Assembly (NCBI RefSeq): GCF_035474595.1
Contig: NZ_DATIND010000154.1
Span: 1 to 32,525, forward strand
DNA length: 32,525 bases
Source of the DNA: Longimicrobium sp.
Lineage (GTDB): Bacteria > Gemmatimonadota > Gemmatimonadetes > Longimicrobiales > Longimicrobiaceae
Direction of reading: 5' to 3'
Part shown: positions 8,143-28,193 of the stretch, in pieces
Layout of the letters: each line of letters begins with the position of its first letter
Numbering within the stretch: the first letter of the stretch is position 1
Position numbers and translations under genes: made by a program
The notes under the pieces: generated by a model
The model's input: the letters and a program-made list of their open reading frames with translations, nothing else
Database searches by the model: none
What the model was told of the DNA's origin: nothing

Positions 8143-8300
8143 GGGGGATGACGATCGAGGGGAATGGTGGGGAGATGTGAATCATGCCGCTCCACAGGAA
8201 TGGGGCGCGGGAGAAGCGCGGGCAAGCCTTCTCGTCCTTTCCATCGACGCATCTCCCCCGGCATCGCCTGCAGCCTTTCCACTCGCCGGAATGCCGCCTT

Positions 8301-8352
8301 GCAGTCCCGGAGGGACTTTGTGCTTTTGTAGCCCGGGGTTTTCAACCCGGGG
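8301..8352 (+). repeat. Dispersed repeat C, copy 1
   Basis: The unit has a small hairpin AGTCCC-GGA-GGGACT, a TTTGTGCTTTTGT linker and a second hairpin around CCCGGGGTT-TTC-AACCCGGGG with one bulged G. The copy at 22820 has the same order with different bases in the second stem. The 372-bp gap 8143-8514 otherwise contains only the hairpin and the short tandem repeat listed separately; no gene is visible. Confidence 0.65.
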
Positions 8353-8420
8353 CGGTCTCGGCTGCGCCGATGCCCCGGCACCGCGGCGATGCCACGGCCG
8401 AAAGGACGTGGACCGATGCA

Positions 8421-8454
8421 GAAGCCGCGGCGCCCGTCCGGACGCCGCGGCTTT
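8421..8454 (-). terminator. GC-rich hairpin downstream of the TonB receptor gene
   Basis: AAGCCGCGGCG pairs with CGCCGCGGCTT across a ten-base loop, about 60 bases after the receptor stop codon. There is no T-run after the stem on the minus strand, so termination by this hairpin alone is uncertain. Confidence 0.5.
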
Positions 8455-8470
8455 CTCCATCTACCGACGC

Positions 8471-8508
8471 AGTTTCGTACTTCCGTACTCCTCGTACTTT
8501 CGTACTTC
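8471..8508. repeat. Short imperfect tandem repeat (CGTACT motif, four units)
   Basis: CGTACT occurs at 8476, 8484, 8493 and 8501, spaced 8, 9 and 8 bases apart, in a TTCGTACTT-like context. The array sits immediately beyond the stop codon of the TonB receptor gene. A slippage-prone microsatellite is the simplest reading. Confidence 0.6.
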
Positions 8509-8514
8509 CCCGCC

Positions 8515-10854
8515 TCAGATCCCCGTCGCGATGCGCAGGACGATGCTCCGCCCCGGGTCCAGCGCGAACTCCTTGTAGCGGTTCAGGAAGCTGCGGTAGG
8601 CGGTGTCCAGCGCGTTGCGGACCTGCAGGTCCACCCGGAAGCTGCGGGGGCCGAAGCGCCGCTCGAACCCGCCGCCCACGTCCAGCAGCGCGTAGCCGGC
8701 GGGCGCCAGCTCGTCCTCCGCGGCGTGCGTCTGCTTGGCGACCATCTCCACGCCGGCGGAAAGGTAGCCGCTCCCCAGGCCGAACAGGCTGCCGGGGCGG
8801 TACTCGGCCTCGGCGCGGCCGCGCGCGGGCGGGATCAGCGCCAGGTCCTCGCCCGTCCCCCGCTCCGTGCCGCGGACGTAGTCGAACACGCCGCGCAGCG
8901 TGAGCGGGCGCAGCACGCGCACCTCGGCCTGCGCCTCCACGCCGCGCAGCAGCGCGTCGGTCTGCGTGGTGCGGAACACGCGCAGGCCGCCGATGAACAC
9001 GTCGGTCGGCGCGGTGACGATGAAGTCGTCGATGGCGTTGCGGAAGACGGAGACCTCCATGCGCGCCGTGGCGCCCGTCCACCGCACCCCGCCGTCGATC
9101 TCCAGCCCCTGCTCCTGCGTGAGGGTGGAATCGCCCACGTCGAAGCGTGCCTCGCCGATGCGCGGGCCGTTGGCGTACAGCTCGAAGAGCGTGGGCGCGC
9201 GCCACGAGCGGCCCACCCCCGCCGTCAGCGCCAGCCCGCGGGCCACGCCCAGCACCGCGCCCGCGTTCCACGACGCCGCGGTCCAGCTCCGCTCGTCGTC
9301 GCTGGGCAGGCCGAGCGCGGGGACGTCGTTGGCGGTGAGCCAGCGGTGGTCCACGCGCGCGCCGGCCATCAGCCGCAGCGGCCCGAAGTCGTTCTGCCAC
9401 ACCGCGAACGCGCCGCCCGAGGCGATGCTGGCGTCGGGCACCAGCAGCTCGGGGCCGCGCGAGTCGTTGCGCTGCGCCAGCCCCGAGACGCCGAGCGTGG
9501 CCTGGCCGTAGCCGCCGGGGGCCAGGTGCGCCAGCACGTCGGCGGTGAAGGTGTTCAGCAGCAGGTCGAACTGCACGCTCTCGTTCCCCTCCGCCTGCGC
9601 CGCGACGCCGGCGGCGACGGGGACGACCGGCTCGTCGGCCACCTCCTGCAGCACGTGGCGCTGCAGCTGCGCGCGCGTCTCGATGCGCACGCCGGGGAGC
9701 GGGAAGTTGCCGGAAAGCTGCAGCCGGTCATCCGACAGCTTCCGTTCGGGCCCGCCCTCCTCCTCTTCCTCCTCCGCGGCGGAGATGGCGCCGCGCCGGC
9801 TCGCGGCGGCGGCGTCGATGGTCACCGGCCCGTCGGCCTCGAGGAGCTTGAACTCGCCGCCATAGCGCTGGTAGCGCAGCGCCAGCGTCCCCCAGCCGCG
9901 GCTCATCCCCACCGCCGCCTCGCCGTTCACCGCGCCGAAGCCGGTGTTGGGGATCTCGCCGTCGGGCGTGTGCACGTCCTGCCCCATGCGGCCGATCACC
10001 GTCGCGCGCCAGCCGAAGCTCCCCGTCGCTCCCTCGCCGCGGGCCACCAGTCCCCCCTCCAGGTTGCCGCTGGCGAAGTACGTCTCCACGCCGCCGCGCA
10101 TGAACGGGCGCCCGGAGCCGTCCGGAAGCGCCTCGGGGATCACGTTCACCACGCCGCCCACGGCGTCCGATCCGTAGAGAAGGCTGGCGGGGCCGCGGAT
10201 CACCTCCACGCGCTCGGCCAGCCGCGCGTCCACCGACGGCGCGTCCTCGTCGCTCCACGAGTAGTCCTCCAGCCGCAGCCCGTCGGCCAGCACCGCCACG
10301 CGCGCCCCGAAGAGGCCGCGGATCACCGGCTTCCCCACCTGCTCGCCGGTGGTCAGCGCGCGCACGCCAGGGAGGGTGGCCAGGCTGCGCGCGAGGGAGA
10401 CGGAATGCTCGCGGCGCAGGCGCTCCGGCCCCAGCGTGGACGCCGGGAGCGGCGAGCTGGAGATGAGGTCGGGAGACCGCGACGCGGTGACGGCCACCGT
10501 CTCCAGCTCGAACGTCCGCTCCTGCAGCGCCACCGTGAGGTTCGGGATGTCCTCGTGGCCGGTGATGACCCGCGTCTCGGTGGCGAACCCCGGCGCGGTG
10601 ACGCGCAGCGTGTACGCGCCCGCGGGAAGCCCGCCCAGCGCGAAGCTGCCGTCGCGGCCAGTGCGGGTGCCGCGCTGCAGCTCCAGCACGGTGACCTGCG
10701 CCGCGGCAACCGGCCGCCCCAACGCGTCGGTCACGCGCCCGCGCAGCGTGTCCTGGACGGCGGCGAGGGTGGAGTTGGGGATGGAGGCCGCGTGCGGCCT
10801 GGCGGACGGCGCGGCCGCCAGCGCGGCGGCGATCAGCGGAATGGCTGTGATCAT
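8515..10854 (-). CDS. TonB-dependent outer-membrane receptor with carboxypeptidase-regulatory-like domain (ZnuD-like)
   Basis: This gene encodes a 779-aa outer-membrane active transporter. A signal peptide (about residues 1-22) is followed by a carboxypeptidase-regulatory-like beta-sandwich (LRGRVTDALGRPVAAAQVTVLEL ... AGAYTLRVTAPGF). The plug domain comes next (LPGVRALTTGEQVGKPVIRGLFGARVAVLADGLRLED ... VEVIRGPASLLYGSDAVGGVVNVI), then a long barrel ending in the family's typical final strand. From memory, the plug resembles ZnuD-type zinc receptors. Around residue 360, one extracellular loop carries a run of six glutamates (AAEEEEEEGG), which could bind divalent cations in place of the His-rich loop of ZnuD. 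The ligand is not proven; vitamin B12 or siderophore uptake remain alternatives. No zinc-regulator site was recognised upstream. Confidence 0.92.
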   Translation of the reverse strand: MITAIPLIAAALAAAPSARPHAASIPNSTLAAVQDTLRGRVTDALGRPVAAAQVTVLELQRGTRTGRDGSFALGGLPAGAYTLRVTAPGFATETRVITGHEDIPNLTVALQERTFELETVAVTASRSPDLISSSPLPASTLGPERLRREHSVSLARSLATLPGVRALTTGEQVGKPVIRGLFGARVAVLADGLRLEDYSWSDEDAPSVDARLAERVEVIRGPASLLYGSDAVGGVVNVIPEALPDGSGRPFMRGGVETYFASGNLEGGLVARGEGATGSFGWRATVIGRMGQDVHTPDGEIPNTGFGAVNGEAAVGMSRGWGTLALRYQRYGGEFKLLEADGPVTIDAAAASRRGAISAAEEEEEEGGPERKLSDDRLQLSGNFPLPGVRIETRAQLQRHVLQEVADEPVVPVAAGVAAQAEGNESVQFDLLLNTFTADVLAHLAPGGYGQATLGVSGLAQRNDSRGPELLVPDASIASGGAFAVWQNDFGPLRLMAGARVDHRWLTANDVPALGLPSDDERSWTAASWNAGAVLGVARGLALTAGVGRSWRAPTLFELYANGPRIGEARFDVGDSTLTQEQGLEIDGGVRWTGATARMEVSVFRNAIDDFIVTAPTDVFIGGLRVFRTTQTDALLRGVEAQAEVRVLRPLTLRGVFDYVRGTERGTGEDLALIPPARGRAEAEYRPGSLFGLGSGYLSAGVEMVAKQTHAAEDELAPAGYALLDVGGGFERRFGPRSFRVDLQVRNALDTAYRSFLNRYKEFALDPGRSIVLRIATGI

Positions 10855-14804: not shown

Positions 14805-15518
14805 TCAGGCCTCGGAAGCGACCGCCGGCTCGTCGGCCGACTGCTTCAGGCCGGCGGGAAACGGAACCGAGACCGGCTCGAACTCCGCGGGGTGCTGCAC
14901 GCGGAAGGCGGCCGCCGCCAGCGCCGCGCCCACGATGGGCCCCGCGACGTAGAACCAGACGTGCGCGACCGGGGCGCTGCCCAGCAGCGCCGTCACGATC
15001 GCCGGGCCGAGCCCGACCGCCGGGTTGAACGCGCCGCCGGAAACCGGCCCGCCCGCGAAGGCGCCCGCCATCACCGTGAGCCCGATCGCCAGGCCGAAGT
15101 ACGAGTTGCCGGCCGTTTCGCGCGTGGTCGCCACGTTCAGCACCACCAGCGCCAGCGCGAAGGTGAACAGCGCCTCGACCCCGAGCACCACCGCGGCGGA
15201 AGCACCGGCCGCCGGCGCGGGAACGAAGGTCTGCCCCACGATGCCGTACACCGCCAGCGCCGCCAGCGTGGCGCCCGCGACCTGTGCCACCATGTACGCA
15301 GCCGCCTCGCCCACGGCGATCTTGCCGCGGAGGAGGACGGCCACCGTGACGGCCGGGTTGTAGTGCGCGCCCGAGATGGCACCGCCCATGTACACCATCA
15401 CCATCAGCGCGGCGCCGATGGCCAGCGGCGCCAGCGGCAGCCCGGCGGTGACGGTGAGCCCGATGGTCAGCACCAGGAAGAAGGTGCCGATGACTTCCGT
15501 CAGCAGCTTGCGAGTCAT
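14805..15518 (-). CDS. MIP/aquaporin-family channel with altered second NPA motif
   Basis: This 237-aa integral membrane channel has six hydrophobic helices and two NPA half-helices. The first is HYNPAV (Asn54-Pro-Ala) and the second is GGAFNPAVGLGP (Asn165-Pro-Ala). Water and glycerol channels normally carry an Arg directly after the second NPA as part of the selectivity filter; here it is Val168. The pore may therefore be wider or pass a different neutral solute. The last 30 residues are a soluble tail rich in Pro, Glu and Ala. GAGG upstream of the ATG supports the start, and an intrinsic terminator closes the gene, so it is a single-gene unit. Calling it a water channel would go beyond the evidence. 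Confidence 0.9.
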   Translation of the reverse strand: MTRKLLTEVIGTFFLVLTIGLTVTAGLPLAPLAIGAALMVMVYMGGAISGAHYNPAVTVAVLLRGKIAVGEAAAYMVAQVAGATLAALAVYGIVGQTFVPAPAAGASAAVVLGVEALFTFALALVVLNVATTRETAGNSYFGLAIGLTVMAGAFAGGPVSGGAFNPAVGLGPAIVTALLGSAPVAHVWFYVAGPIVGAALAAAAFRVQHPAEFEPVSVPFPAGLKQSADEPAVASEA

Positions 15519-15892: not shown

Positions 15893-15918
15893 GGATTCAC
15901 GTTGCAGTTGTGTTCGAT

Positions 15919-15947
15919 GGCACCATCGGCGCGCCTTCGATGGTGCC
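15919..15947 (+). other. Hairpin in the leader of the multicopper oxidase
   Basis: GGCACCATCG pairs perfectly with CGATGGTGCC across a nine-base loop. It lies between the possible promoter and the oxidase start. It could be an attenuator or a leader structure. The 511-bp gap 15519-16029 has no gene of its own. Confidence 0.45.
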
Positions 15948-16029
15948 GCCGGCCGGTGGAAACGCCGCCGCCGGGCTCGACGGAAAATCACCCGCAGTCC
16001 CGCCGCTCACCCAAGCAAAAGGAACCGCG

Positions 16030-18087
16030 ATGGAAACCCGCACCGCCCCTCCGGCACCCGGCCCGGCCGCGCCGCCCCGGCGCCGGCGCGCGCTTCCGTT
16101 CCTGGCCGCGGCGGGCGCGGCGGCCGCGCTCCTGGCCGCCGCAGCCAGCAGCGGAAGCGCGGGCCCGGCCCCGCGCGGCGTGCCCGGCCCGTCGCCGCGC
16201 GACACCGGCGTGGCCACCGGCGGTTGGCGCGAGCCGGACTCGGTGAAGAGCGTGGGCGGCGTGCTGGACGTGACCATGGCCGTGGTGAAGCGCACGGTGC
16301 ACGTGCCGCTGGACTCGGCCACCACGCAGCAGCTGATGATGTACCGCCTGCTCAGCGCCAACGGCGCGCAGGTGAACCGCCCCGCCAGCTACCCCGGGCC
16401 CACCTTCATCGTGAACCCGGGCGACCGGGTGCGCATCAACCTGATCGACAGCCTGGGCGCGTCGGACAACGACCACTGCATGAGCTACCCCGCCGCAAAC
16501 GCGGGGCGCGACACCATGCAGGACTGCTTCCACGGGCCCACCTACACGAACATGCACTTCCACGGGTTCCACGTGACGCCCGCGGACTCGGGCGACAACG
16601 TGCTGCTGGAGATCGCGCCGGGGCAGAACTTCCAGTACTCGTTCCGCATCCCGCAGAACCAGTCGCCGGGAACGCACTGGTACCACCCGCACAAGCACGG
16701 GTCGGTGGCGCTGCAGGTGAGCAACGCCATGTCGGGCGCCTTCATCGTGCGCCAGCCCGCCTACGGCCTGGACTCGCTAACGGCCGCGAACCACATCCGC
16801 GAGGTGCTGGCGGCGGTGCAGCAGGTGGACACCATGATGAACCTGATCGACGCCGGGCTCTCGGCGAGCACCACGGTGAACGGCCTGGGCGCGGCGCAGA
16901 TCCCCATCCGGCCGGGCGAGGTGATCCGGCTGCGGCTGGTGAACGAGAACATCTCGAACTCGGCCGAGTTCAAGATCTTCTTCTCGTCGTCCACCAACCT
17001 GCCGCAGTTCTACGACATCGCGCGCGACGGGGTGCAGTACGACAACGCGAACTACGACCCGGCGCACCCCGACACGGCGCTCTGGATCTACCCCGGGAAC
17101 CGGCTGGACATGTTCGTGAAGGCGCCGAACGTGTCGCGCGGCACCTTCGAGCTGCGGGTGCAGTCGGTGCGCACCGAGCGCGGCTCGCGGAAGGTGCGCG
17201 TGCTGAGGCAGACGCGAATCCTGCAGGCGCCGGGGCGCATCGCCTCGTTCCGCATCGTGGCGCCGAATCCGGGCGACACGTACGCCACGCAGCTTCCGCA
17301 GCAGCTGCCGCCGCTGCCCGGCTTCCTGGCCAACGTGGGGGCCACGCGCGACACGGCGTACGTGGTGTTCAACGACACCGCCTACGCGAACAGGAGCAAG
17401 CAGACGCCCACGCAGTTCTACCTGGGCACCGTGGCCAACCCCTATATGCGCTTCAACGACACCTCGCTGTACATCCCCGTGAACGCGGGGGGCACGCAGC
17501 TGCCGATGGTGCTGGGCGACAGCCAGACGTGGATCATCCAGAACCGGGGGACGTCGAAGAACCACCCGTTCCACATCCACATCAACCCCTTCCAGATCAT
17601 GCGCGTGGAGTACGGGCCCACCGACCCGTTCGCCCCGTACTACGCGTTCCTGAACACGGCCGCCGCCGGCGGGCACCCCGTGTGGTCCGACGTGGTACCG
17701 CTCCCGCTCCCGTTCACGCCCATCGGCGGGCCCACGCGCCCGGGCGTGGTCACCATCCGGCAGCGCTACGACGACTTCGACGGGTGCCAGGACTGCGGCA
17801 CGCCGTGGGGCAAGTTCGTGATGCACTGCCACATCCTGGGCCACGAGGAGCGGGGGATGATGCAGCTGATCGGCATCTTCCCCTCGCTCACCGAGTCGCG
17901 TTCGTTCCTGCAGGCGCACCCCGCGCCCGTGCTGCGCGGCCTGGCTCCGCCGCCGGCGCGCGGAGGAGCGCGGCCGCGCTCGGGCCCGGGCTCCGGAACC
18001 GGCGGCGGCAACGGCATGGGCCCCGGCACCGGCACGGGCGGCGGCCACGGCGACGGTCCGGGTGGCGGGCACCACCAGCACCCGTAA
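16030..18087 (+). CDS. Multicopper oxidase (three-domain, laccase/bilirubin-oxidase-like), exported
   Basis: This 685-aa enzyme is expected to oxidise metal ions or phenolic compounds with reduction of oxygen to water, outside the cytoplasmic membrane. All copper-ligand motifs are present: HFHGFH at His176-181, HWYHPHKHG from His216, HPFHIH from His512, and HCHILGHEERGM at His599-Met610, including Cys600 and the axial Met610. The N-terminus has RRRR followed by a hydrophobic stretch (ALPFLAAAGAAAALLAAAA), a signal or anchor segment. The C-terminus is a Gly-rich tail ending in HHQHP that might bind metal. The ATG at 16030 is preferred over an upstream GTG because AAGGAA precedes it by five bases and the N-terminal signal then starts correctly. 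It stands alone and is convergent with modC. Confidence 0.94.
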   Translation: METRTAPPAPGPAAPPRRRRALPFLAAAGAAAALLAAAASSGSAGPAPRGVPGPSPRDTGVATGGWREPDSVKSVGGVLDVTMAVVKRTVHVPLDSATTQQLMMYRLLSANGAQVNRPASYPGPTFIVNPGDRVRINLIDSLGASDNDHCMSYPAANAGRDTMQDCFHGPTYTNMHFHGFHVTPADSGDNVLLEIAPGQNFQYSFRIPQNQSPGTHWYHPHKHGSVALQVSNAMSGAFIVRQPAYGLDSLTAANHIREVLAAVQQVDTMMNLIDAGLSASTTVNGLGAAQIPIRPGEVIRLRLVNENISNSAEFKIFFSSSTNLPQFYDIARDGVQYDNANYDPAHPDTALWIYPGNRLDMFVKAPNVSRGTFELRVQSVRTERGSRKVRVLRQTRILQAPGRIASFRIVAPNPGDTYATQLPQQLPPLPGFLANVGATRDTAYVVFNDTAYANRSKQTPTQFYLGTVANPYMRFNDTSLYIPVNAGGTQLPMVLGDSQTWIIQNRGTSKNHPFHIHINPFQIMRVEYGPTDPFAPYYAFLNTAAAGGHPVWSDVVPLPLPFTPIGGPTRPGVVTIRQRYDDFDGCQDCGTPWGKFVMHCHILGHEERGMMQLIGIFPSLTESRSFLQAHPAPVLRGLAPPPARGGARPRSGPGSGTGGGNGMGPGTGTGGGHGDGPGGGHHQHP

Positions 18088-18481: not shown

Positions 18482-19597
18482 CTATCTATCGTCCTCGTAG
18501 ACGGTGATCGCGCTGGTCTTCAGGAGGAGATACAGTTCGGTTCCGGGGGCGATGTGGAGGTCCGCGAGCGCGTCCGCCGTCACCTCGGCCACGAGCGGCG
18601 GGGCGCCGGGGGCGATGCGGGCGGAGACGAGGTGCAGCGCGCCCGCCGTCTCCACCGACTCGACGCGCGCGGGGATGGCGTTGCGGGCGGAGATGCCGGC
18701 CGGCGGCTCCAGCGCCAGCATCACCTCGTCCGCGGGGATGCCCACCATCAGCCGCCCGCCGATGGCCGTCCCCGCGCGCGGGATGGTGAGCGCGGGGCCG
18801 CCGGTCCCATCCCCCAGCCGCACCCGCGTCGTCTCGCCACGTGTCTCCACCACGACGGCGGGAAGGACGTTCTGAAAGCCCTCGTGCTCGGCGAGCGGGA
18901 AGACGTCCGGCCGCGCCAGCACCGCGCGCGGCTCGCCACGGGCCACGACGCGCCCCTCGCGCAGCACGATGAGATCATCGCACAGCGCCTGCACCTCGAC
19001 GGGGTCGTGCGAGACGAGGAGGATGGGGAGCGCGAACTCGGCCTGCACCCGCGCCAGGAAGGGGAGCACGCGCCGGCGCAGCGCCGCGTCGAGCGAGGCC
19101 AGCGGCTCGTCCAGCAGCAGCAGCCGCGGCCCGGAGCAGAGCGCGCGCCCCAGCGCCACGCGCTGCCTCTCGCCTCCGGAGAGCGTGCGGACGGCGCGGC
19201 CCAGCAGCGGCCCCAGCTCCAGCACGCGGACGACGGAATCCAGCGACACGTCGCCGCGGTGGCCGTTCCGCGCCGCCCTTCCCTCCCCCGCGCGCAGGTT
19301 GCCGCGGACGTCCAGGTGCGGGAAGAGCAGCGAGTCCTGCGGCACGTACCCGATCCCCCTGCGCTCCGGCGGCACCCACGCGCGGCGCCCGCTGTCCTGC
19401 CAGACGTCGTCCCCGAAGCGGACCACGCCGTGCGCGCCGCGGCGCAGCCCCGCCACTGTCTCCAGCAGCGTCGTCTTCCCCGAGCCCGAGACGCCGAAGA
19501 CGCCGGTCACCCGGTGCGTGGTGGTGAAGTCGGCCTCCAGCTCGAAGCGGTCCAGCGGCAGGCGCACCTGCACGGACAGCGGCGGCGCGCCGTTCAT
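18482..19597 (-). CDS. modC: Molybdate ABC transporter ATPase ModC
   Basis: This is the 371-aa ATP-hydrolysing subunit that drives molybdate import by ModABC at the inner face of the membrane. Walker A is GVSGSGKTT (residues 35-43), the Q-loop is in [12 protein letters not shown], the signature is [15 protein letters not shown] (from about 139), Walker B is LLLLDEP (159-165), and the switch His is His197 (SHD). The last part (about 304-370, [15 protein letters not shown] ... [15 protein letters not shown]) is the molybdate-binding Mop/TOBE domain that distinguishes ModC from other importer ATPases. Its ATG overlaps the modB stop as ATGA, so translation is probably coupled. No ModE regulator gene is in the window. 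Confidence 0.95.
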
Positions 19598-20268
19598 CTC
19601 CGCGCCGCCACCCGCGTCTGCGACAGCGCCTCGGTCGCGTACACCGCCGCGAACCCCGCGATCAGGGCCACGGCGAGGAGGAGATTCGCCTCGGATTCGC
19701 GCCCGGCCTGCTGCGCGCTGAAGATGGCCGTCGCCAAGGTCTGCGTGCGCCCGGGGATGTTGCCGGCGAGGATGATGGTCGCCCCGAACTCGCCCAGCGC
19801 GCGGGTGAAGCCCAGGATGAGCGCCGCGAGGAGCCCGCGCGCGGCGAGGGGGAGGGTGAAGCGCAGGAATGTCGCCGCGCGCCCGTGCCCCAGCGTCCGC
19901 GCGATGTCCTCGTAGCGCGGATCGACCCCCTCGAAGCTCACGCGCGCCGTGCGCACGACCAGCGGCATCGCCATCACCGCGCAGGCGACGACGACGGCCT
20001 TCCAGGTGAGGATCACGTCCAGGTCCAGGCCGATCGTCCCCCGCCCCAGCGGCCCGTCGTACGCGAACAGGCGCAGGAGCAGGTAGCCCACGGCGGTGGG
20101 CGGCAGGACGAGGGGAAGGGAGAAGAGGGAGGAGACGACGCGCTTTCCCGGAAACTCGCGCCGGGCAAGGAGATACGCGACGAGCGTCGCCGGCACCATG
20201 ACGATCAGCATCGCCACCCCGGCCCAGACGACGCTGGACTGCAGCGCGCGCAGCGCCGGCTCGCTCAC
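19594..20268 (-). CDS. modB: Molybdate ABC transporter permease ModB
   Basis: This 224-aa inner-membrane permease carries molybdate across the membrane. It has several hydrophobic helices, and the EAA-type loop that contacts ModC is visible ([23 protein letters not shown]), followed by [26 protein letters not shown], which is highly typical of ModB. I chose the GTG at 20268 as start because it overlaps the modA stop codon (GTGA), gives the first helix its full length and fits the usual family size; the ATG further in would remove part of that helix. Both ends overlap with neighbours, which indicates one modABC transcript. Confidence 0.93.
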
Positions 20269-21074
20269 GGCGCGGCGGCCGTCTGGTTGGACATGGGGAT
20301 GAAGCCGCGCTGCGCGAACAGCTGCGCCGCGTCCTGCCCCGACACGAAGGCCAGGAACCCGCGCGCCGCCTCCGCGTTCGCCCCGCCCGCGACGAGTGCC
20401 ACGGCGTAGCGGATCGGCGGCCCGTCCTTCACCTCGAACAGCACCCGCGTGCGGTCCGCGAACGCGAGCTGGTCGGTGCGGTAGACCAGCCCCGCCACGT
20501 CCGGGTCCGCGGCGACGAGCGCGATCGCCGAGCGCACGTCCGGCGTCGGCGCGATGCGAGGCTCGACCGCGTCCCACAGCGGCTTTCCAGCGCACGTCAC
20601 GTTCTGCATCCACTTCTTCGCGTAGATCCCCGCCGGCACCGCCCGCGGGTCGCCCGTCGCCAGGTGCCGGAACGGGAGCGCGGCCAGCGCGCAGGGATCC
20701 GCCATCCGCGCCGTGCTGCGCGCGTTGGCGACGACCACGAGGGTGTTGGAGAGGATGTCGCGCCGGGTGCCGTCCACCAGCCGGCCGCGGTTCTGGACGG
20801 TGTCCATCCACGCCTCGCTGGCGCTCACGAACAGGTCCATCCCCCGCGCCGCGCCGATCTGGTGCGCCAGGTCGTTGGAGCCGGCGAAGTTGAAGGTGAC
20901 GCGCGTTCCCGTCTGCCTGGCGTACGCGTCGCCCAGCTCCTGCAGCGACTCGCGCAGGCTGGCCGCAGCGAACACCACGACCTCGCCGCGCGCCTCCGGC
21001 TCCCGCGCATCGCCGCGCGTGCAGCCGGCAGCGAGCGCGGCCATCGTCATGGCGATGAGGATGCGGCTCTTCAT
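20265..21074 (-). CDS. modA: Periplasmic molybdate-binding lipoprotein ModA
   Basis: This 269-aa protein captures molybdate or tungstate outside the membrane and passes it to ModB. The signal sequence ends in a lipobox at Cys18 (LAAGC), so the protein is a lipoprotein. The oxyanion-binding motifs are visible: [11 protein letters not shown] near the mature N-terminus, [12 protein letters not shown] and DLFVSAS, then [11 protein letters not shown] further on. It is the first gene of modABC. The 398-bp region upstream of it holds no gene; no known molybdenum-cofactor riboswitch or ModE box was recognised there. Confidence 0.94.
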
Positions 21075-21230
21075 GGTCTGTCCGTCAGGAGTGGAGACGG
21101 GAATCTAGCGCCCGCGGAGAGATTGCCAAACGCCGGAGATGCGGGGCGACGAGGATCGCATCCTTCGTGATCGATGATGCCGGTGCGCGATCGCCTGCCT
21201 CGCGCCCTCTCCGGCCGGCTCAGGCCGTCC

Positions 21231-21373
21231 ACCTCTCCCGTACCGGGAGAGGTAGCTCGATAAGATCTGCGTTCGACGCCAGCATCCTGCCCGCCCGTCT
21301 TGGCTGGCCCGCTCCGGCGTTCGGATCACACCGCCGATGCTGGACAGCCACCTCCTCCCGGAACGGGAGGGGG
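21231..21373. repeat. Pair of related small hairpins upstream of modA
   Basis: ACCTCTCCCG-TAC-CGGGAGAGGT at 21231-21253 and CCTCCTCCCG-GAA-CGGGAGGGGG at 21351-21373 have the same layout with different bases; the second has one G-T wobble. They lie in the gene-free stretch 21075-21472 between modA and the porin gene. They look like another small dispersed hairpin element. Confidence 0.55.
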
Positions 21374-21374
21374 T

Positions 21375-21403
21375 CGCGCCCTCCGGCGCGGGGGGAGGGC
21401 GCG
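21375..21403 (-). terminator. Hairpin downstream of the porin gene
   Basis: CGCGCCCTCC pairs with GGAGGGCGCG across a nine-base loop about 70 bases past the porin stop codon. No T-run follows on the minus strand. It may separate the porin from the modABC transcript. Confidence 0.5.
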
Positions 21404-21472
21404 AGGCGGCGGAAACGCTCTGGTGCCAGTCGCCGGTTGTTGCTCCCGATCCGAGCTCGCTCGGGGTTCGAA

Positions 21473-22723
21473 TCAGAAATCCCACTGCCCCTGGATGTAC
21501 GCCGAGAAGCGCGTGCCGCCGCCCAGCCGCGTCTCCAGCAGCTTCCCCGGCGCGAACGCGGACGCGCCGCCGGAGATCTCGAACGGCGGCGCGGCGCGCC
21601 ACGCGGCGGTCAGGTCCGCCTCGCTCCCGAACGCATCGTCGCCGCGCTGCGGGAGGAAGCGGTGGCCCTCCAGCAACAGCCGCACGGCGGGGATCGGCGC
21701 GTGCGCCAGCGTGACGCCCGCATCCACCAGCCCGTGCGTCCCCGACAGCTCGGGAACGATGTCGATCGTCCCGTACAGCCGGTGGTTGGTGCCGAACAGC
21801 GTGCTGAACCGCTCGTCGCGCCCGTCCCCGGGCGAGCCGTCGCCGCTCAGCACGGTGAGCACGCCGCCGAGCCGCGTCTGCGTCCGCGGCAGCAGCGCCA
21901 CGCTCGCCGTCACGCTCCCCATGAACGCCCGGATCTCCTCCCGCGCCACCGAATCGCTCGCCGCGCCGCGCCCCGTCTGCCCCGCGCCCTCCAGTTCCAC
22001 CGCGAGCCGCCCCGCGGTGCCGCGAAGGTTCGCGCCGAGCGTGCTGCGCCCCAGCACGCGCCGCCCCAGGTCGTCGCCGCTGCGGATGCGCGCGGTGTTG
22101 TCGTCGCGCAGCGCGAACACGTCCGCCGCGATCGCGCGCACCGGCTTCCACGTGGCCCACGCGCCGTAGAAGTTCTGCGCACCAATCGCGGCGGCGCTGG
22201 GCGCGGAGAGGCGGTCCGCCCACGCGTCCACGCTCAGCGTCCGTGCGGCGAACCACGTCGCGCGCGCGCCGTCGAACGAGCGGCCGGTGTTGCTCCAGGC
22301 GCTCACGCCGATCAGCCGCTCGTTCGCGAACGTCATCTCCTGCCGCCCGAAGCGCAGCATCAGCGGCAGGTGGAAGGGCGAGTCGACCTGCGCGAACGCC
22401 TGGTGCATGTCCAGCTGCGGCGCCGACGCGTCCGTCGTCCCCCGCCCGTCGTCCGGGTCGCTCTCGCCCAGGAAGCGCGCGTCCTGCACCTCGCCCACCA
22501 CGGTGACCCACGCCACCGGGTGCGCCGTCGCCCGCAGCCGCGAGCGGAGGAGGTGGACGTTCACGCGCTGGTCCGCCAGCACGTGCCGGTCGTCCCACTC
22601 GCTCCGCAGCCGCACCTGCCCCGTCACCGCGATCCGCGGCCCCTCCGCCCGCGCCGAGTCCTGCGCGATCAGGGGAGATGATAGAAGGAAGATGCCGATG
22701 CCCAGCACCGCCAGAAGCCGCAT
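21473..22723 (-). CDS. Outer-membrane beta-barrel, alginate-export-family porin
   Basis: This 416-aa protein is predicted to be an outer-membrane channel. It has a signal peptide (MRLLAVLGIGIFLLSSPLIAQ), and the remainder is a series of amphipathic strands, beginning VTGQVRLRSEWDDRH and ending with an aromatic residue (YIQGQWDF), as expected for barrel insertion. Motifs such as LRFGRQEMTFANERLIG and RSFDGARATW are typical of the Alginate_exp family, whose members include AlgE and many general porins. The ATG at 22723 is the only one that puts the signal peptide at the N-terminus. It sits between modABC and the mos/ABC genes on the same strand. A role in letting molybdate through the outer membrane is possible but only inferred from position. 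Confidence 0.85.
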   Translation of the reverse strand: MRLLAVLGIGIFLLSSPLIAQDSARAEGPRIAVTGQVRLRSEWDDRHVLADQRVNVHLLRSRLRATAHPVAWVTVVGEVQDARFLGESDPDDGRGTTDASAPQLDMHQAFAQVDSPFHLPLMLRFGRQEMTFANERLIGVSAWSNTGRSFDGARATWFAARTLSVDAWADRLSAPSAAAIGAQNFYGAWATWKPVRAIAADVFALRDDNTARIRSGDDLGRRVLGRSTLGANLRGTAGRLAVELEGAGQTGRGAASDSVAREEIRAFMGSVTASVALLPRTQTRLGGVLTVLSGDGSPGDGRDERFSTLFGTNHRLYGTIDIVPELSGTHGLVDAGVTLAHAPIPAVRLLLEGHRFLPQRGDDAFGSEADLTAAWRAAPPFEISGGASAFAPGKLLETRLGGGTRFSAYIQGQWDF

Positions 22724-22819
22724 CAAGTCCAATCTTGGTCCGCGTGTAGATACATGAGCATGGGGGATGATCGAGCCCTCCGCCGAGCCAAACCTTGGTG
22801 ATCGAGCCGATGCCGGAGA

Positions 22820-22869
22820 GCAGTCCCGCAGGGACTTCGTGCCGTTGTTGCCCCCGAATTCATTCGGGG
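22820..22869 (+). repeat. Dispersed repeat C, copy 2
   Basis: The order of copy 1 is kept: GCAGTCCCG, AGGGACTT, a GTGC-TTGT linker and a hairpin. Here the second hairpin is CCCCGAAT-TC-ATTCGGGG, so both sides of the stem differ from copy 1 while pairing is preserved. It lies just after the ABC permease gene. Confidence 0.65.
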
Positions 22870-22884
22870 TACCCGGAGGCGCCC

Positions 22885-23655
22885 CTACTCCTCCCCCGCC
22901 CGCGCCATCGCATGCCGCGCCACCGCGAACAACAGCACCGCGAGCACCAGCAGCGGCACCAGCAGCGCCGCCGCATCCGGCATCCGCGCGAAGAGCAGCG
23001 CCTGCCGCAGCGCGTCGGCCACGCGCGTCAGCGGGTTCCAGCGCGCGGCCTCCGCCAGCCAGCCGGGCATCTGCCGCGTAGGCACCAGCGCCGTGCTGGT
23101 GAAGAGCAGCGGCAGGTTCACCACGTGGACGAACACGGCCATGCTCTCCGGCGCCCCCGTCCTCAGCGCGATCCAGCACGACAGGCTGGCGTACGCCACC
23201 GCGAACGCCGCCAGCCCCAGCGCCGCCACCAGCACTCCCGCGAGCGAGACGTGCAGCCGCGCGCCGAGCGCGATCCCCAGCAGCGCCACCACCGCCGCCT
23301 GCACCAGCAGCCGGGAGACGTCGCCCGCGAGCTTGCCACCCAGCAGCCAGCCGGGGTGCGCCGTCGCGCGCGCCATCCGCTGCGCGAAGCCGGTCTGCAG
23401 GTCGCGCACGAGGTCGATCCCCGCCTGGCTGGCGCCGAACAGCACCGTCATGGCGCAGACGCCGGGGAGAAGGAAGGAGACGTAGGAAAGCCCCGCGTAC
23501 TCGCCGCCCAGCGCGAAGCGGTGGAAGAGGAAGCCGAAGATCAGCATCCAGAACAGCGGCTGCACGAAGCTGAACGAGAGCGGCACCGGCCGCCGCAGCG
23601 CCTTCATCCAGCTCCGCCGCGCCGTCTCGCGCACCAGCTGCACGGCCGCGCTCAT
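22885..23655 (-). CDS. ABC-2 type transporter permease (DrrB/NodJ-like)
   Basis: This 256-aa integral membrane protein is of the ABC-2 family, which usually moves substrates out of the cell. It has the usual six hydrophobic segments: SFVQPLFWMLIFGFLF, YVSFLLPGVCAMTVLFGAS and LLVQAAVVALLGIALG, then LAAFAVAYASLSCWIAL, LFTSTALVPTRQMP and a last helix AALLVPLLVLAVLLFAVA. The motif PLFTSTALVP-x-MP followed by WNPLT is characteristic. Its ATG overlaps the ATPase stop codon (ATGA), so the two form one transporter. The transported substrate is unknown; drug, polysaccharide or lipid export are all possible from family alone. Confidence 0.9.
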   Translation of the reverse strand: MSAAVQLVRETARRSWMKALRRPVPLSFSFVQPLFWMLIFGFLFHRFALGGEYAGLSYVSFLLPGVCAMTVLFGASQAGIDLVRDLQTGFAQRMARATAHPGWLLGGKLAGDVSRLLVQAAVVALLGIALGARLHVSLAGVLVAALGLAAFAVAYASLSCWIALRTGAPESMAVFVHVVNLPLLFTSTALVPTRQMPGWLAEAARWNPLTRVADALRQALLFARMPDAAALLVPLLVLAVLLFAVARHAMARAGEE

Positions 23656-24671
23656 CCGCGCCTCCCGCGTCCGCCGCCGCGCCTCGCGCCGGCGCGCGCC
23701 GGCTCCGCGGGGCGGCTCCCCGTCAGCCGGAAGTACGCCGCGGCCAGGTCCGGCTCCGCGCGGTCGTAGCCGTGGTACCCGAACCCGTGCGCCGCCAGCA
23801 CCTCCAGCGCCGGCTCGTCGTCCGGGTGCCGGTCGCGCCAGAGCGTCACCATCGCCCCGTCGACGTCCACCTCCGGTGACCCCGGCAGCGCGGCGAGCAC
23901 CGCCCGCAGCGAATCGGCCTGCGCGCCCACGGGGTGCGCGAGCGTCACCGTCGCCCGCGCCTTGGCGTGCGCGGAGACGAGCGCGGCGGGCGCATCGTCC
24001 GCGACCAGCCGCCCGCCGTGCATCACCAGCACGCGGTCGCAGCGCGCGGCCGCGTCCGCCAGGTCGTGCGTGGCCACGAACGTCGTCCGCCGCGCGTCCC
24101 GCCAATCCCCCAGCCGCCGCCACAGGTCGCGTCTCCCTTCCGGGTCCAGGCTCGCCGTGGGCTCGTCCAGCAGCATCAGCGCGGGCGCGTGCAGCGCGGC
24201 CAGGGCGAGATGGAGGCGCTGCCGCTGCCCGCCGGACCACGTCGCCACGCGACGAGCGCAGAACGGCGCCAGCCCGTGCTCCTCCACCGCCGCGCCCAGC
24301 CGCCGCTCGCGGTCGCCGCGCGGGAGGGCGGCCAGCGCATGGAAGAGGCGCAGCGTCTCCCACCCCGTCATCTCCGGGTCCAGCGCCGCGTCCTGCCCCG
24401 CGTACCCGGCCGCCGCGCGCAGCCGCGCCCGGTCGCGCCGCGGGTGCATCCCCATCACCTCGGTCGATCCCGCGTCGGGCGCGGCGATGCCGAAGAGCAC
24501 CTTCAGCAGCGTGCTCTTCCCCGATCCGTTCGCCCCGATCAGTGCCACCAGCTCGCCCGCGGGCACGGCGAACGAGACGCCGTCCAGCGCGCGCACGCCG
24601 CCGCGGAAGGTCTTTTCCACCCCCGCGGCGCGGACGGCCAGGTCAGTCGGCGTAGACGATGGTGCCGGCAT
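23652..24671 (-). CDS. ABC transporter ATPase, partner of the ABC-2 permease
   Basis: This 339-aa ATPase energises the permease encoded next. Walker A is GANGSGKST (residues 46-54), the signature is WSGGQRQRLHLALAAL, Walker B is ALMLLDEPTASLD, and the switch His is in VATHD. The C-terminal 100 residues or so resemble the extra domain of DrrA-type export ATPases and end in a basic, Gly/Arg-rich tail. The start at 24671 is supported by GAGGGG five bases upstream and lies 29 bases inside the end of the mosA gene. This overlap makes co-translation with mosA likely and suggests a functional link that is not part of the known storage system. Confidence 0.92.
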   Translation of the reverse strand: MPAPSSTPTDLAVRAAGVEKTFRGGVRALDGVSFAVPAGELVALIGANGSGKSTLLKVLFGIAAPDAGSTEVMGMHPRRDRARLRAAAGYAGQDAALDPEMTGWETLRLFHALAALPRGDRERRLGAAVEEHGLAPFCARRVATWSGGQRQRLHLALAALHAPALMLLDEPTASLDPEGRRDLWRRLGDWRDARRTTFVATHDLADAAARCDRVLVMHGGRLVADDAPAALVSAHAKARATVTLAHPVGAQADSLRAVLAALPGSPEVDVDGAMVTLWRDRHPDDEPALEVLAAHGFGYHGYDRAEPDLAAAYFRLTGSRPAEPARAGARRGGGRGRRG

Positions 24672-25467
24672 GCTCGCCCCTCACGGCGGCCGCGATGCGG
24701 TCCGGGTCGCGCCCGTTCACCACCTGGAACTGCGTCACCAGCCGCGCGGTCAGCAGGATGTCGGGGAGCACCTCGTCGAACGGCAGGCTCTTGAGCGCCC
24801 TGCGCTTCAGCTCCCTGGCGCCGATCGAGTCGATGAACGACGCGTTCGGGTTCTCGCGCGGATCCTCGGTGTAGAGGCCGTCGACGTCCTTCACCAGCGT
24901 CACCGACTTGCACCCGAAGCACTCGCCCAGGATCAGGCACCCCGCGTCGGTGCGGTGCGGGGGGATGCGGCCGACTGCGGGCGGGTGCTCCCAGAGCGAG
25001 TAGGGCGGCACGCCGTTGAAGATCACCCCCGGCGCGGAGTGGATGAAGAGGGGGAGGAGGTGCCCGAAGATCTCGGGGGGGATGGCCACCACGCCGTGCG
25101 GCGCCAGCAGCGTTCCCAGGATGTGCGCGTTCCCCAGCGCGTCGGCCACGGAGATCTGCGCCAGCACGCCGGTCGGCAGGCCGAGATCCAGGCCGATGGA
25201 GAAGACGTGGCGGCTGCGCACCCCGCCGCCCACGCCCAGGATGAGCCGCTCCGTCTTCAGCAGCTCGCCCAGCACGTCCACCACGGGGTACGCCACCGCC
25301 TTCCCCGCGTCCAGGATCGAGCGCCCGCCCACCTTCACCACGTGCACGTGCGGCAGCATCCGCACCACGGGGCTCTCGGTGGATGCCATCACCTGCTTGT
25401 CCAGCAGGCTCTCGCGCATGAGCATCGACTGCACGTGGTGCCGCGCGTCCAGAGGAGATTCGAGCAT
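24643..25467 (-). CDS. mosA: Molybdenum storage protein alpha-type subunit (UMP-kinase fold)
   Basis: This 274-aa protein has the amino-acid-kinase fold of bacterial UMP kinase but matches the molybdenum storage protein of Azotobacter much better (recalled sequences). That protein is a hexameric cage that packs polymolybdate clusters using ATP. Visible motifs are VVKVGGRS (Lys45), the loop GVGGGVRSRH (78-87) followed by VFSIGLDLGLPTGVLA, VPPYSLWEHPPAVGRIPPHRTDAG (143-166) and VKDVDGLYTEDP. GLDLGLP and the GRIPPHR-TD segment are shared with MosA. The N-terminal extension before the first strand is also a storage-protein trait. The ATG at 25467 has no clear ribosome site; an ATG at codon 15 is an alternative. 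It is not the housekeeping pyrH: the length and central insert differ. Confidence 0.87.
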   Translation of the reverse strand: MLESPLDARHHVQSMLMRESLLDKQVMASTESPVVRMLPHVHVVKVGGRSILDAGKAVAYPVVDVLGELLKTERLILGVGGGVRSRHVFSIGLDLGLPTGVLAQISVADALGNAHILGTLLAPHGVVAIPPEIFGHLLPLFIHSAPGVIFNGVPPYSLWEHPPAVGRIPPHRTDAGCLILGECFGCKSVTLVKDVDGLYTEDPRENPNASFIDSIGARELKRRALKSLPFDEVLPDILLTARLVTQFQVVNGRDPDRIAAAVRGEHAGTIVYAD

Positions 25468-25592
25468 CGCGTATGTGTCTGCGAAATGGGGAGATGGAGA
25501 ATTCGCTTGCGAGAACCGTCCTCGGCGACCGGGCGGATCGCGTGCATGGATCGCCGCGAAGCCGGCCGTCCATCGCGAGCCGGCGCCCGATC

Positions 25593-25664
25593 CCGAGCCG
25601 AACAGCCTCGCGCAGTTTGCGAGGCTTCCCGTAGTTGTTGCTGCGGCTTCAGCCGCCGGTGGAT
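25593..25664 (-). repeat. Dispersed repeat A, copy 4, between mosB and mosA
   Basis: On the minus strand the 41-base core is identical to the other copies. The first palindrome reads GCGGCT-GA-AGCCGC, where copies 2 and 3 have GCGACT/AGTCGC: both sides changed together, so pairing is kept. Its right flank GTTCGGCTCGG matches copy 1. It lies in the 209-bp spacer between the two storage-protein genes. Confidence 0.88.
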
Positions 25665-25676
25665 ATCGGCACCCGC

Positions 25677-26492
25677 TCAATCCGCCGTGATCACCGTCCC
25701 CACGTCCTCGCCCTCCAGCGCGCGGGTCAGGTTCCCGCGCACCAGCCCGTTGATCACGCGGATCTCGCGGCGGTTCTCGGCGTGCTCCATCAGCTCCAGC
25801 ACCGCGCGCTCCACCACCACGTCGTCCAGGTCCATCTCCTTCAATTCCGACAGGGAGATGCGGGGGATGAACTTCGCGTTGCGGTCCTTCTTGGGGTCGG
25901 CCGTGTACAGTCCGTCCTCGTCCTTCACGTAGATCATCGAGCGCGTGCCGAACACCTCGCTCACCAGGAAGCACCCGGTGTCGGTGCGGTGCGGCGGAAT
26001 GCGGCCCACGGCGGGGTTCTGCTGCCAGAAGGTGTAGGGCGGCATGCCGAAGAAGATGCACGCGCCGCGCTCCTCCAGATACAGCGGCAGCTGCGGGAAC
26101 TGCGCGGGCTCGATGAACGGGATGCCATGCTTCGCGAGGAGATAGTGCAGCATCCGCGCGTTCTGCATGCTCACGAAGGTCCCCAGCACGCTCAGCACGC
26201 CGGTCGGCATCCCCAGGTCGATCCCCACGCTGTACGCGTGCCGCGCCCGCGTCCCCGCGCCGGTGCCGATGATCATCTGGTGGCGCCCCAGGTTCTCCAC
26301 GATCTCCTCGATCAGCGGGAACACCGCCGCGCGCCCGCGGTCGATGAAGCTCTGGCCGCCCACCTTCACCACGTTGGCCTGGGGAAGGATCTGGACTACG
26401 GGGTGCCCCGTGGTCCGTTCCAGCAGCGTGGCGTCGGTCAGGTTGCCGTCCACCAGCGAGCGGCCCAGCTCGGTCAGCAGTTCGTTCTGCAT
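25677..26492 (-). CDS. mosB: Molybdenum storage protein beta-type subunit (UMP-kinase fold)
   Basis: This 271-aa protein is the likely second subunit of a molybdenum storage cage, very close in length to Azotobacter MosB (about 270 aa, recalled). Shared motifs are VVKVGGQSFIDRGRAAVFPLI (near residue 41), IIGTGAGTRARHAYSVG (from 74), the LLAKHGIP segment, PPYTFWQQNPAVGRIPPHRTDTGCFL (from 151), VKDEDGLYTADP (179-190), FIPRIS and a C-terminus of the form VINGLVRGNLTRALEGEDVGT. This last segment is almost the same as in MosB. Expected partners are MosA subunits and ATP. The start at 26492 lacks a visible ribosome site. The spacer to mosA holds repeat A copy 4; both genes lie on the same strand and read mosB then mosA. 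Confidence 0.9.
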   Translation of the reverse strand: MQNELLTELGRSLVDGNLTDATLLERTTGHPVVQILPQANVVKVGGQSFIDRGRAAVFPLIEEIVENLGRHQMIIGTGAGTRARHAYSVGIDLGMPTGVLSVLGTFVSMQNARMLHYLLAKHGIPFIEPAQFPQLPLYLEERGACIFFGMPPYTFWQQNPAVGRIPPHRTDTGCFLVSEVFGTRSMIYVKDEDGLYTADPKKDRNAKFIPRISLSELKEMDLDDVVVERAVLELMEHAENRREIRVINGLVRGNLTRALEGEDVGTVITAD

Positions 26493-26593: not shown

Positions 26594-27412
26594 TCAGTCG
26601 ATGGGGATCTGGATGGCGGCGATCTCGAACGCCTCCTCCTGCGGCAGCGGCGCGTCGATGCTCCCGAACCGCTCCGCCGCCCAGCCGCGCAGCCCGGCGA
26701 GCACGCGGGCCTTCACCTCCGCGGGAACGTCGATCCCCGCCAGCCCGCTTTTCCCCTCCCACGCGGCGATCGAGTCCGCCGGGCGGTGCCGCGTCGTCCA
26801 CCGCGACGCGACCCGCGGCTCGGCGCGGCGCCCGCCCAGCCGCTCCAGCGCGCCGAAGACGGCTTCCGCGCCCGCGTCGCCGCTGCGGCCGCGGTAGCCC
26901 TGCGCCTCCAGCAGCTGCCGCATCCGGCGCCGCATCTCGCTCTTCGGCGAGTCCGGCGGCCTCCGCACGCGCCCGGCGACGAGCCATCCTCCCGGCGCGC
27001 GCAGCACCCGCCGCGTCTCCGCCACCACGTGCGCGGGGTCCAGGTGGTGCAGCGCCCGCGCGCAGAAGATCACCGCGACGCTGCGATCGTCGGCGGGCCA
27101 GCGCTCGTTCCCGTCCGCCACGTGCACCGGGTCGCCGAAGCCCACACCGGACAGCAGCTCGCGGAACACCTCCACCATCGCCGGCGAGCGGTCGAAGCCG
27201 ATGTAGCGCGACGTCCTGCGCACCAGCGGCAGGCTGAGCGAGCCGGTTCCCGTGCCGATATCCAGCAGCAGGTCGCCCTCGCCGAGGCCGGTGATGGACA
27301 CGACCGCGTCCGCCACCGCCTCCGCCACCTGGATGGGGATGCCGGCGCGTTCGTCGAAATGCGTAGCCTGATCGTCGTAGAGCACGCAGGAGGATACGGC
27401 CAACTGCAACAT
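26594..27412 (-). CDS. Class I SAM-dependent methyltransferase
   Basis: This 272-aa cytoplasmic protein carries the SAM-binding loop LLLDIGTGTGSLSLPLV near residue 50, followed by YIGFDRSPAMVEV, DDRSVAVIFCARALHHLDP and the post-methyltransferase-I strand RRVLRAPGGWLVAG. The N-terminal YDDQATHFDERAGI is typical of methyltransferases of the Methyltransf_11/25 type acting on small molecules or quinone-like substrates, but the substrate cannot be told. The start at 27412 is uncertain: no ribosome site is visible and in-frame ATGs lie further upstream. It lies 101 bases upstream of mosB on the same strand and could share its transcript. It is divergent from the next methyltransferase gene. Confidence 0.83.
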   Translation of the reverse strand: MLQLAVSSCVLYDDQATHFDERAGIPIQVAEAVADAVVSITGLGEGDLLLDIGTGTGSLSLPLVRRTSRYIGFDRSPAMVEVFRELLSGVGFGDPVHVADGNERWPADDRSVAVIFCARALHHLDPAHVVAETRRVLRAPGGWLVAGRVRRPPDSPKSEMRRRMRQLLEAQGYRGRSGDAGAEAVFGALERLGGRRAEPRVASRWTTRHRPADSIAAWEGKSGLAGIDVPAEVKARVLAGLRGWAAERFGSIDAPLPQEEAFEIAAIQIPID

Positions 27413-27629
27413 TCTGCAACGTATTCCGGCGCGTTCTGCGAGCACGGAGAAGCGTCCGGGCCGCATCGTCCGGCAACGGGAGATGCCACGCACGCGCGTA
27501 ACTCGCATCCCCGCCACGCCATGGCGGAACCGCCGGGATCGGCTCGCCGCACGGGCGGAACACGAGGAGGGGGATGCGAGGTATGTGGATGCGACACCCG
27601 CCGCGTTTCACCCCACCGTGAGGCCGCCG

Positions 27630-28193
27630 ATGCGCACCCAGCCCGAGCCCGCCGAGCGCTACCGCCCGTTCGCCAGCATCCCGCGCCGGAACCTGATGCA
27701 GGAGTACCTGGAGGTGCCGGCGCTCATCCGCGCGCTCGGCATCCCGCGCGGCAAGCGCATCCTGGAGGTCGGCTGCGGGCGGGGGATGGCGCTCCCGCCG
27801 ATCGCGAAGCTGTGCGCCCCCGCGCGCCTGGTCGGCCTGGACATTGATGCGGAGGCCCTCGCGGACGCCCGCCGCCACGTCGCGGAGCGCCACGTCGCCG
27901 CCGAGCTGGTCGACGGCGACGTCCGCGCGATCCCCTTCCCCGACGCATCGTTCGATGTGGTGGTGGACTTCGGCACCTGCTTCCACATCTCCCACCCGGA
28001 GCAGGCGCTGGCCGAGATCACGCGCGTGCTGGCGCCGGGCGGGTGGTTCGTCTACGAGACGCCGGTGAGCCAGCTTCTGTCGCACCCCGTCCGCTCGTTC
28101 GGCCGGCGTCTGCCGTGGCGCGCCGCCCCGTCGCTCGCGCGCTTCCGCGGCCGCCTCCTCTGGGGTGCCCGCCGCAAGTCGGCGCAGGCATAG
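27630..28193 (+). CDS. Class I SAM-dependent methyltransferase (small)
   Basis: This 187-aa cytoplasmic enzyme has the SAM-binding motif RILEVGCGRGMALPPIA near residue 46, LVGLDIDAEAL, DGDVRAIPFPDASFDVVVDFGTCFHI and ITRVLAPGGWFVYETP, a complete Methyltransf_11 core. The C-terminus after the core is short and basic (RSFGRRLPWRAAPSLARFRGRLLWG), which might contact membranes or nucleic acid. The ATG at 27630 is chosen because GTGAGG lies upstream and the frame beyond it has no protein-like content. A strong hairpin ends the unit. The substrate is unknown. Confidence 0.86.
   Translation: MRTQPEPAERYRPFASIPRRNLMQEYLEVPALIRALGIPRGKRILEVGCGRGMALPPIAKLCAPARLVGLDIDAEALADARRHVAERHVAAELVDGDVRAIPFPDASFDVVVDFGTCFHISHPEQALAEITRVLAPGGWFVYETPVSQLLSHPVRSFGRRLPWRAAPSLARFRGRLLWGARRKSAQA

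Follow-up and report, generated by a model that had tools for sequence, protein, structure and literature searches.

A molybdenum storage-like gene pair linked to modABC and a conserved methyltransferase in a nifD-free Longimicrobium genome

The best-studied cage protein that builds metal-oxide clusters, the molybdenum storage protein (MoSto), comes from a nitrogen fixer, and its role has been rationalised by the demand of nitrogenase. The MoSto of Azotobacter also accepts tungsten. Deletion of mosAB in Azotobacter severely impairs molybdenum accumulation (PMC6448029), and in its MosA subunit Glu129 and His156 bind octamolybdate covalently (PMC4504029). In this study a locus of Longimicrobium sp. 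is compared with this system; the window referred to throughout is the whole stretch of DNA that was analysed, 32,525 nucleotides in length. In the open-access literature we found a single paper devoted mainly to MoSto, and nothing that combines 'molybdenum storage protein' with Gemmatimonad-, or 'molybdenum storage' with multicopper oxidase.

A sequence-only reading had placed modABC, an outer-membrane barrel, an ABC-2 transporter and mosA/mosB-like genes on one strand, and all of these genes are indeed found on the minus strand. The boundaries of the unit, however, were wrongly drawn, as a conserved methyltransferase upstream and a multicopper oxidase were missed. The features, all in window coordinates, are as follows.

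25677-26492, minus strand: MosB-type storage subunit, the first cage gene (MoSto match, tree clade)
24643-25467, minus strand: divergent MosA-like storage subunit, the second cage gene (MoSto match, own clade, AlphaFold model)
26594-27412, minus strand: class I SAM-methyltransferase directly upstream of the cage genes (conserved neighbour, GxGxG SAM motif)
23652-24671, minus strand: ABC-2 exporter ATPase (PF00005; DrrA-like, below cut-off)
22885-23655, minus strand: ABC-2 exporter permease (PF01061, DrrB-like)
21473-22723, minus strand: outer-membrane barrel of the Alginate_exp family (PF13372, E 1.2e-29)
20265-21074, minus strand: modA, molybdate-binding protein with a lipoprotein-like N-terminus (TIGR01256, 143.2 bits, cut-off 62.5)
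19594-20268, minus strand: modB, molybdate permease (TIGR02141, 194.6 bits, cut-off 182.6)
18482-19597, minus strand: modC, molybdate ATPase with a TOBE domain, PF03459 (TIGR02142, 326.8 bits, cut-off 285)
15910-18087, plus strand: multicopper oxidase, secreted-type, convergent with modC (PF07732, PF07731)

By transcription, the minus-strand order over 18482-26492 is the mosB-type gene, the MosA-like gene, the ABC-2 ATPase and permease, the barrel, and modA-modB-modC. The ABC-2 ATPase and MosA-like genes have 29 bp in common and the modA, modB and modC reading frames overlap by a few bases, while 398 bp separate the barrel from modA. The window also carries a second methyltransferase (27483-28193, Methyltransf_11), which is divergent from the conserved one and for which none was seen beside the cage genes of relatives, as well as a TonB-dependent receptor (8518-10854) and an aquaporin-family (MIP) gene (14805-15518).

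Both cage proteins belong to the MoSto family, an assignment backed by sequence, tree and predicted fold. In PDB searches the first cage protein matched Azotobacter vinelandii MoSto beta at 8e-91 and its best UMP kinase at only 9e-8; the second matched MoSto beta at 1.8e-67, MoSto alpha at 7.7e-56 and its best UMP kinase at 6e-7. The locus therefore encodes two paralogous subunits of the AA-kinase fold that are nearer to MoSto than to kinases. In the main tree, built from 178 proteins of storage type with five PyrH sequences as outgroup, the first protein, 56% identical to MosB, falls into one clade with the MosB of Azotobacter and Azospirillum (86 rows, SH-aLRT 97). A separate clade of 70 rows (support 99), distinct from true MosA, contains the second, and in a smaller tree all second subunits and MosA fall into one group with a support of 38. 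Given these placements and support values, the name mosB is firm and the name mosA is loose. For the second protein an AlphaFold model (mean pLDDT 81.9) was compared with the PDB, and its first fifteen matches are all MoSto chains, with TM values of 0.78-0.83.

Comparison of individual residues suggests which parts of the cage have been kept. The catalytic lysine, equivalent to Lys-beta42, the residue exchanged in the Kb42S variant of known structure (6ris), is invariant in 69/69 first and 69/69 second subunits and is present in both window proteins. Where Azotobacter has Glu129 and His156, however, all 69 second subunits carry Pro and Ser/Ala (Pro and Ser in the window), and we therefore class the cage as a variant of the MoSto family and not as an ordinary member. 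All first subunits hold Glu at the Glu129-equivalent position. Residues that are new and invariant, or nearly so, are E128 in the first subunits and the histidines H136 and H161 in the second. Since the lysine is invariant, the anchors are replaced and new histidines have appeared, the cage seems to have retained its ATP machinery while its cluster site was rebuilt. With the octamolybdate anchors replaced in 69/69 sequences, the stored species or the metal may differ from those of Azotobacter.

The neighbourhood of the cage genes was surveyed in the best 80 of 382 relatives, mostly metagenome bins; the resulting frequencies lean to window-like members, and some phylum labels are possibly binning errors. 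Among these 80, the gene immediately preceding mosB, in the same orientation, is the methyltransferase in 51 of the 74 loci with room for it, an adjacency that spans at least 10 named phyla and one further lineage. In 38 of the 80 loci the distance from the cage genes to ModA or ModB is at most 4.5 kb, so that the linkage of mod and mos genes first proposed from gene order holds, and the two sets are not always far apart in related genomes. A multicopper oxidase lies within 4 kb in 28 loci, and an ABC-2 permease of the same kind within 4 kb in 19. The chance of finding an oxidase that close to a random gene is below 1%, an approximate value from about 80 PF07732 matches in 20 genomes (about 111 Mb) that were partly selected for oxidases. 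Distances between MosB proteins are correlated with the distances between second subunits (Mantel r 0.90) and between methyltransferases (0.75), values that no permutation reached, and with ModA/ModB distances (0.58-0.59; 0/999 permutations as high). In a further class of this phylum, too, ModA and ModB adjoin Mos copies, which there are quite dissimilar. In that class, L126, L127 and L128 have three storage-type genes close together beside modABC, their sequences being only about 50% identical to those of the window, and in L126 a 401-aa protein, weakly like the ECF transporter T component CbiQ, is located between the storage genes.

The barrel does not share this conservation, as no clear homologue was found near the cage genes of the same 80 of 382 relatives, and its family, PF13372, serves alginate export. 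The outer-membrane entry step of the sequence-only reading was accordingly abandoned, together with the barrel as a molybdate entry pore, and the barrel probably lies outside the functional unit. In L010/L131 a repeat-rich frame of BNR/WD40-looking type (7662-9466) takes the position that the barrel has in the window, with the ABC-2 permease on one side and modA on the other, so this slot is variable.

Analysis of the phylum proved informative about how the cluster was acquired. Full storage genes occur in 7 of 395 genomes of the phylum, and in the window's family in 5 of 21, counts which, as the family genomes are related, represent non-independent events. The methyltransferase is present in exactly these five family genomes (above 320 bits; next best 62), in which the cage-linked ModB (190-198 bits) is the sole one; a different, canonical ModB (212-244 bits) is encoded by 14 of the 16 cage-free genomes. 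The two ModB types occur together in none of the 21, and the window's modB is the only ModB over the cut-off in its genome. In G379, ModB and the cage genes are on different contigs, the cage contig being just 6 kb. The usual molybdate importer thus seems to have been replaced in the cage-bearing genomes, and the simplest reading of this distribution is that the cluster was gained as a block whose ModABC took over molybdate import. This apparent replacement is the strongest indication that molybdate is the cargo.

The published work that we found concerns the diazotroph Azotobacter, in agreement with the sequence-only reading, and the absence of nif genes noted there extends, for nifD, to the whole genome: no nifD match was found in its 6.57 Mb (96.9% complete), and its NifH-family matches are weak, at 31 bits or less. 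This absence is nevertheless no peculiarity of the locus. In 50 genomes with close cage relatives nifD exceeded its cut-off in seven, six cyanobacteria and Bradyrhizobium agreste, and the 43 without it are an upper bound on true absence since some genomes are incomplete bins. Pterin molybdoenzymes are present elsewhere in the window's genome, namely an oxidoreductase of the FdhF/YdeP type over its cut-off and four proteins of the xanthine-dehydrogenase family. The idea that storage is tied to a larger number of xanthine-dehydrogenase-type enzymes was dropped, as the counts in cage-bearing and cage-free relatives overlap.

The methyltransferase has a conserved GxGxG SAM motif and a predicted structure of pLDDT 89.4, of which the nearest solved structure is 2yqz (TTHA0223, function unknown). 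An arsenite methylase was considered and rejected, since none of the columns conserved across 53 sequences is a cysteine. The window's oxidase has all four copper-ligand motifs (HxH, HxH, HxxHxH and HCHxxxH), and in L010 and L011 an oxidase convergent with modC follows it at the same place. In the Gammaproteobacteria L020, L031, L032, L033, L038, L058 and L061 the second cage gene is immediately followed by a multicopper oxidase, and there is no methyltransferase; the L031 oxidase, the one scanned from these loci, is CueO-like. The oxidases differ widely, and a single orthologous oxidase subunit was for this reason rejected.

Taken as a whole, we consider it rather probable that the locus encodes a MoSto-like, ATP-driven store of molybdate or tungstate which supplies pterin molybdoenzymes and in which nitrogenase has no part. 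With Azotobacter as the model, ModA would capture molybdate and ModBC would bring it into the cell, where an alpha/beta cage of the MosB and MosA-like subunits, presumably assembled as a hexamer, would load and condense it with the use of ATP; tungstate could be handled in the same way. Once supply drops, the stored metal would be released for cofactor synthesis, and the molybdopterin enzymes would be buffered. The substrate of the methyltransferase is probably a small ligand or the cage, and in loci with an ABC-2 pair this exporter might carry the ligand out. More speculatively, the multicopper oxidase could oxidise phenolic ligands of the catechol or humic kind in the periplasm and so free bound molybdate for ModA. 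The simple linear import path that had been proposed is not supported, because the ABC-2 pair is an exporter-type system and what accompanies the cage genes most constantly is a methyltransferase, often together with a multicopper oxidase.

Other explanations of the locus have to be considered. We regard it as highly improbable that the pair belongs to some other pathway, as kinases of nucleotides or amino acids: neither gene clusters with UMP kinases in the tree, where very long branches (5.5 and 3.1 changes per site) set PyrH apart, the PDB scores prefer MoSto by at least 60 orders of magnitude, and separate weak PyrH-like matches exist in genomes of the phylum. The retention of the AA_kinase fold with its Lys and Asp, and the naming of the first gene as 'uridine kinase' in public records, are what such a reading has in its favour; on the sequence evidence it is already ruled out. 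On the Azospirillum plasmid, too, mosB is labelled 'uridine kinase' or 'uridine monophosphate kinase' (L132, L133) beside a gene called storage protein alpha. Labels of this kind in the public records make the system easy to overlook. It is also unlikely, though less so, that the linkage is loose and a matter of general genomic clustering, with methyltransferase-mosB-mosA as the only true unit. The partial frequencies of modABC, oxidase and ABC-2 genes, their varied orders and orientations, and the gap between barrel and modA would fit this well enough, but the neighbour rates far exceed the expectation for a single gene, gene order is shared across the window's genus, its family, Methylomonas and several other phyla, and neither the correlation of MosB with ModA/ModB distances nor the mutual exclusion of the two ModB types would be expected from it.

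The nature of the cargo is the point on which an alternative carries more weight. A cage whose cargo is a ligand complex or an oxyanion other than molybdate (tungstate, vanadate or a further one), and to whose chemistry the methyltransferase and oxidase contribute, is doubtful but has to be taken seriously, given that the octamolybdate anchors are replaced in every clade member, that the second subunit has the new residues H136 and H161 and the first the new E128, and that the constant methyltransferase and frequent oxidase are both missing beside the Azospirillum pair. The linked transporter, on the other hand, scores as molybdate-type over curated cut-offs, the linked ModB substitutes for the canonical ModB in the family, and the Azotobacter protein itself takes up tungsten as well. 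A broader possibility, which we offer as tentative, is that the clade represents a cross-phylum store or processor of oxyanions, in which a rebuilt MoSto cage without the known molybdate anchors acts together with a dedicated methyltransferase and a periplasmic oxidase, and whose acquisition displaces the usual importer, with cargo or chemistry unlike those of Azotobacter.

Kin of the cage in many phyla, and a carrier free of nitrogenase, indicate that metal storage of the MoSto kind is much wider than nitrogen fixation; the family mostly occurs without nitrogenase, across phyla, and with a fixed partner methyltransferase. The purpose of cellular molybdenum or tungsten stores thereby becomes testable outside nitrogen fixation, and the clade offers natural cages with different cluster-binding residues.

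Among described systems, MosA/MosB of Azotobacter vinelandii shares with the window two adjacent paralogous genes of the AA-kinase fold and the catalytic lysine. The window's genome, however, is without nitrogenase, its second subunit is only distantly MosA-like and lacks Glu129 and His156, and the window-type cage is spread over many phyla and adjoins modABC, a methyltransferase and often an oxidase or ABC-2 exporter (for Azotobacter the comparison is one of proteins only). The mosAB of the Azospirillum plasmid is likewise a two-gene unit, but there a true MosA (470 bits) takes the second position, and neither mod genes nor the conserved methyltransferase nor an oxidase adjoin the pair, so the latter two enzymes must be dispensable for some stores of the family. 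The window's A, B and C components all exceed the curated cut-offs for the molybdate ABC importer ModABC, and its ModB belongs to another lineage than the ModB of the family's cage-free members. The Tub/Mop TOBE-domain tungstate/molybdate stores provide oxyanion storage for pterin enzymes (PMC11980592), as would the system proposed here, but do so with an unrelated 7-kDa TOBE fold in place of the AA-kinase-fold cage found in the window.
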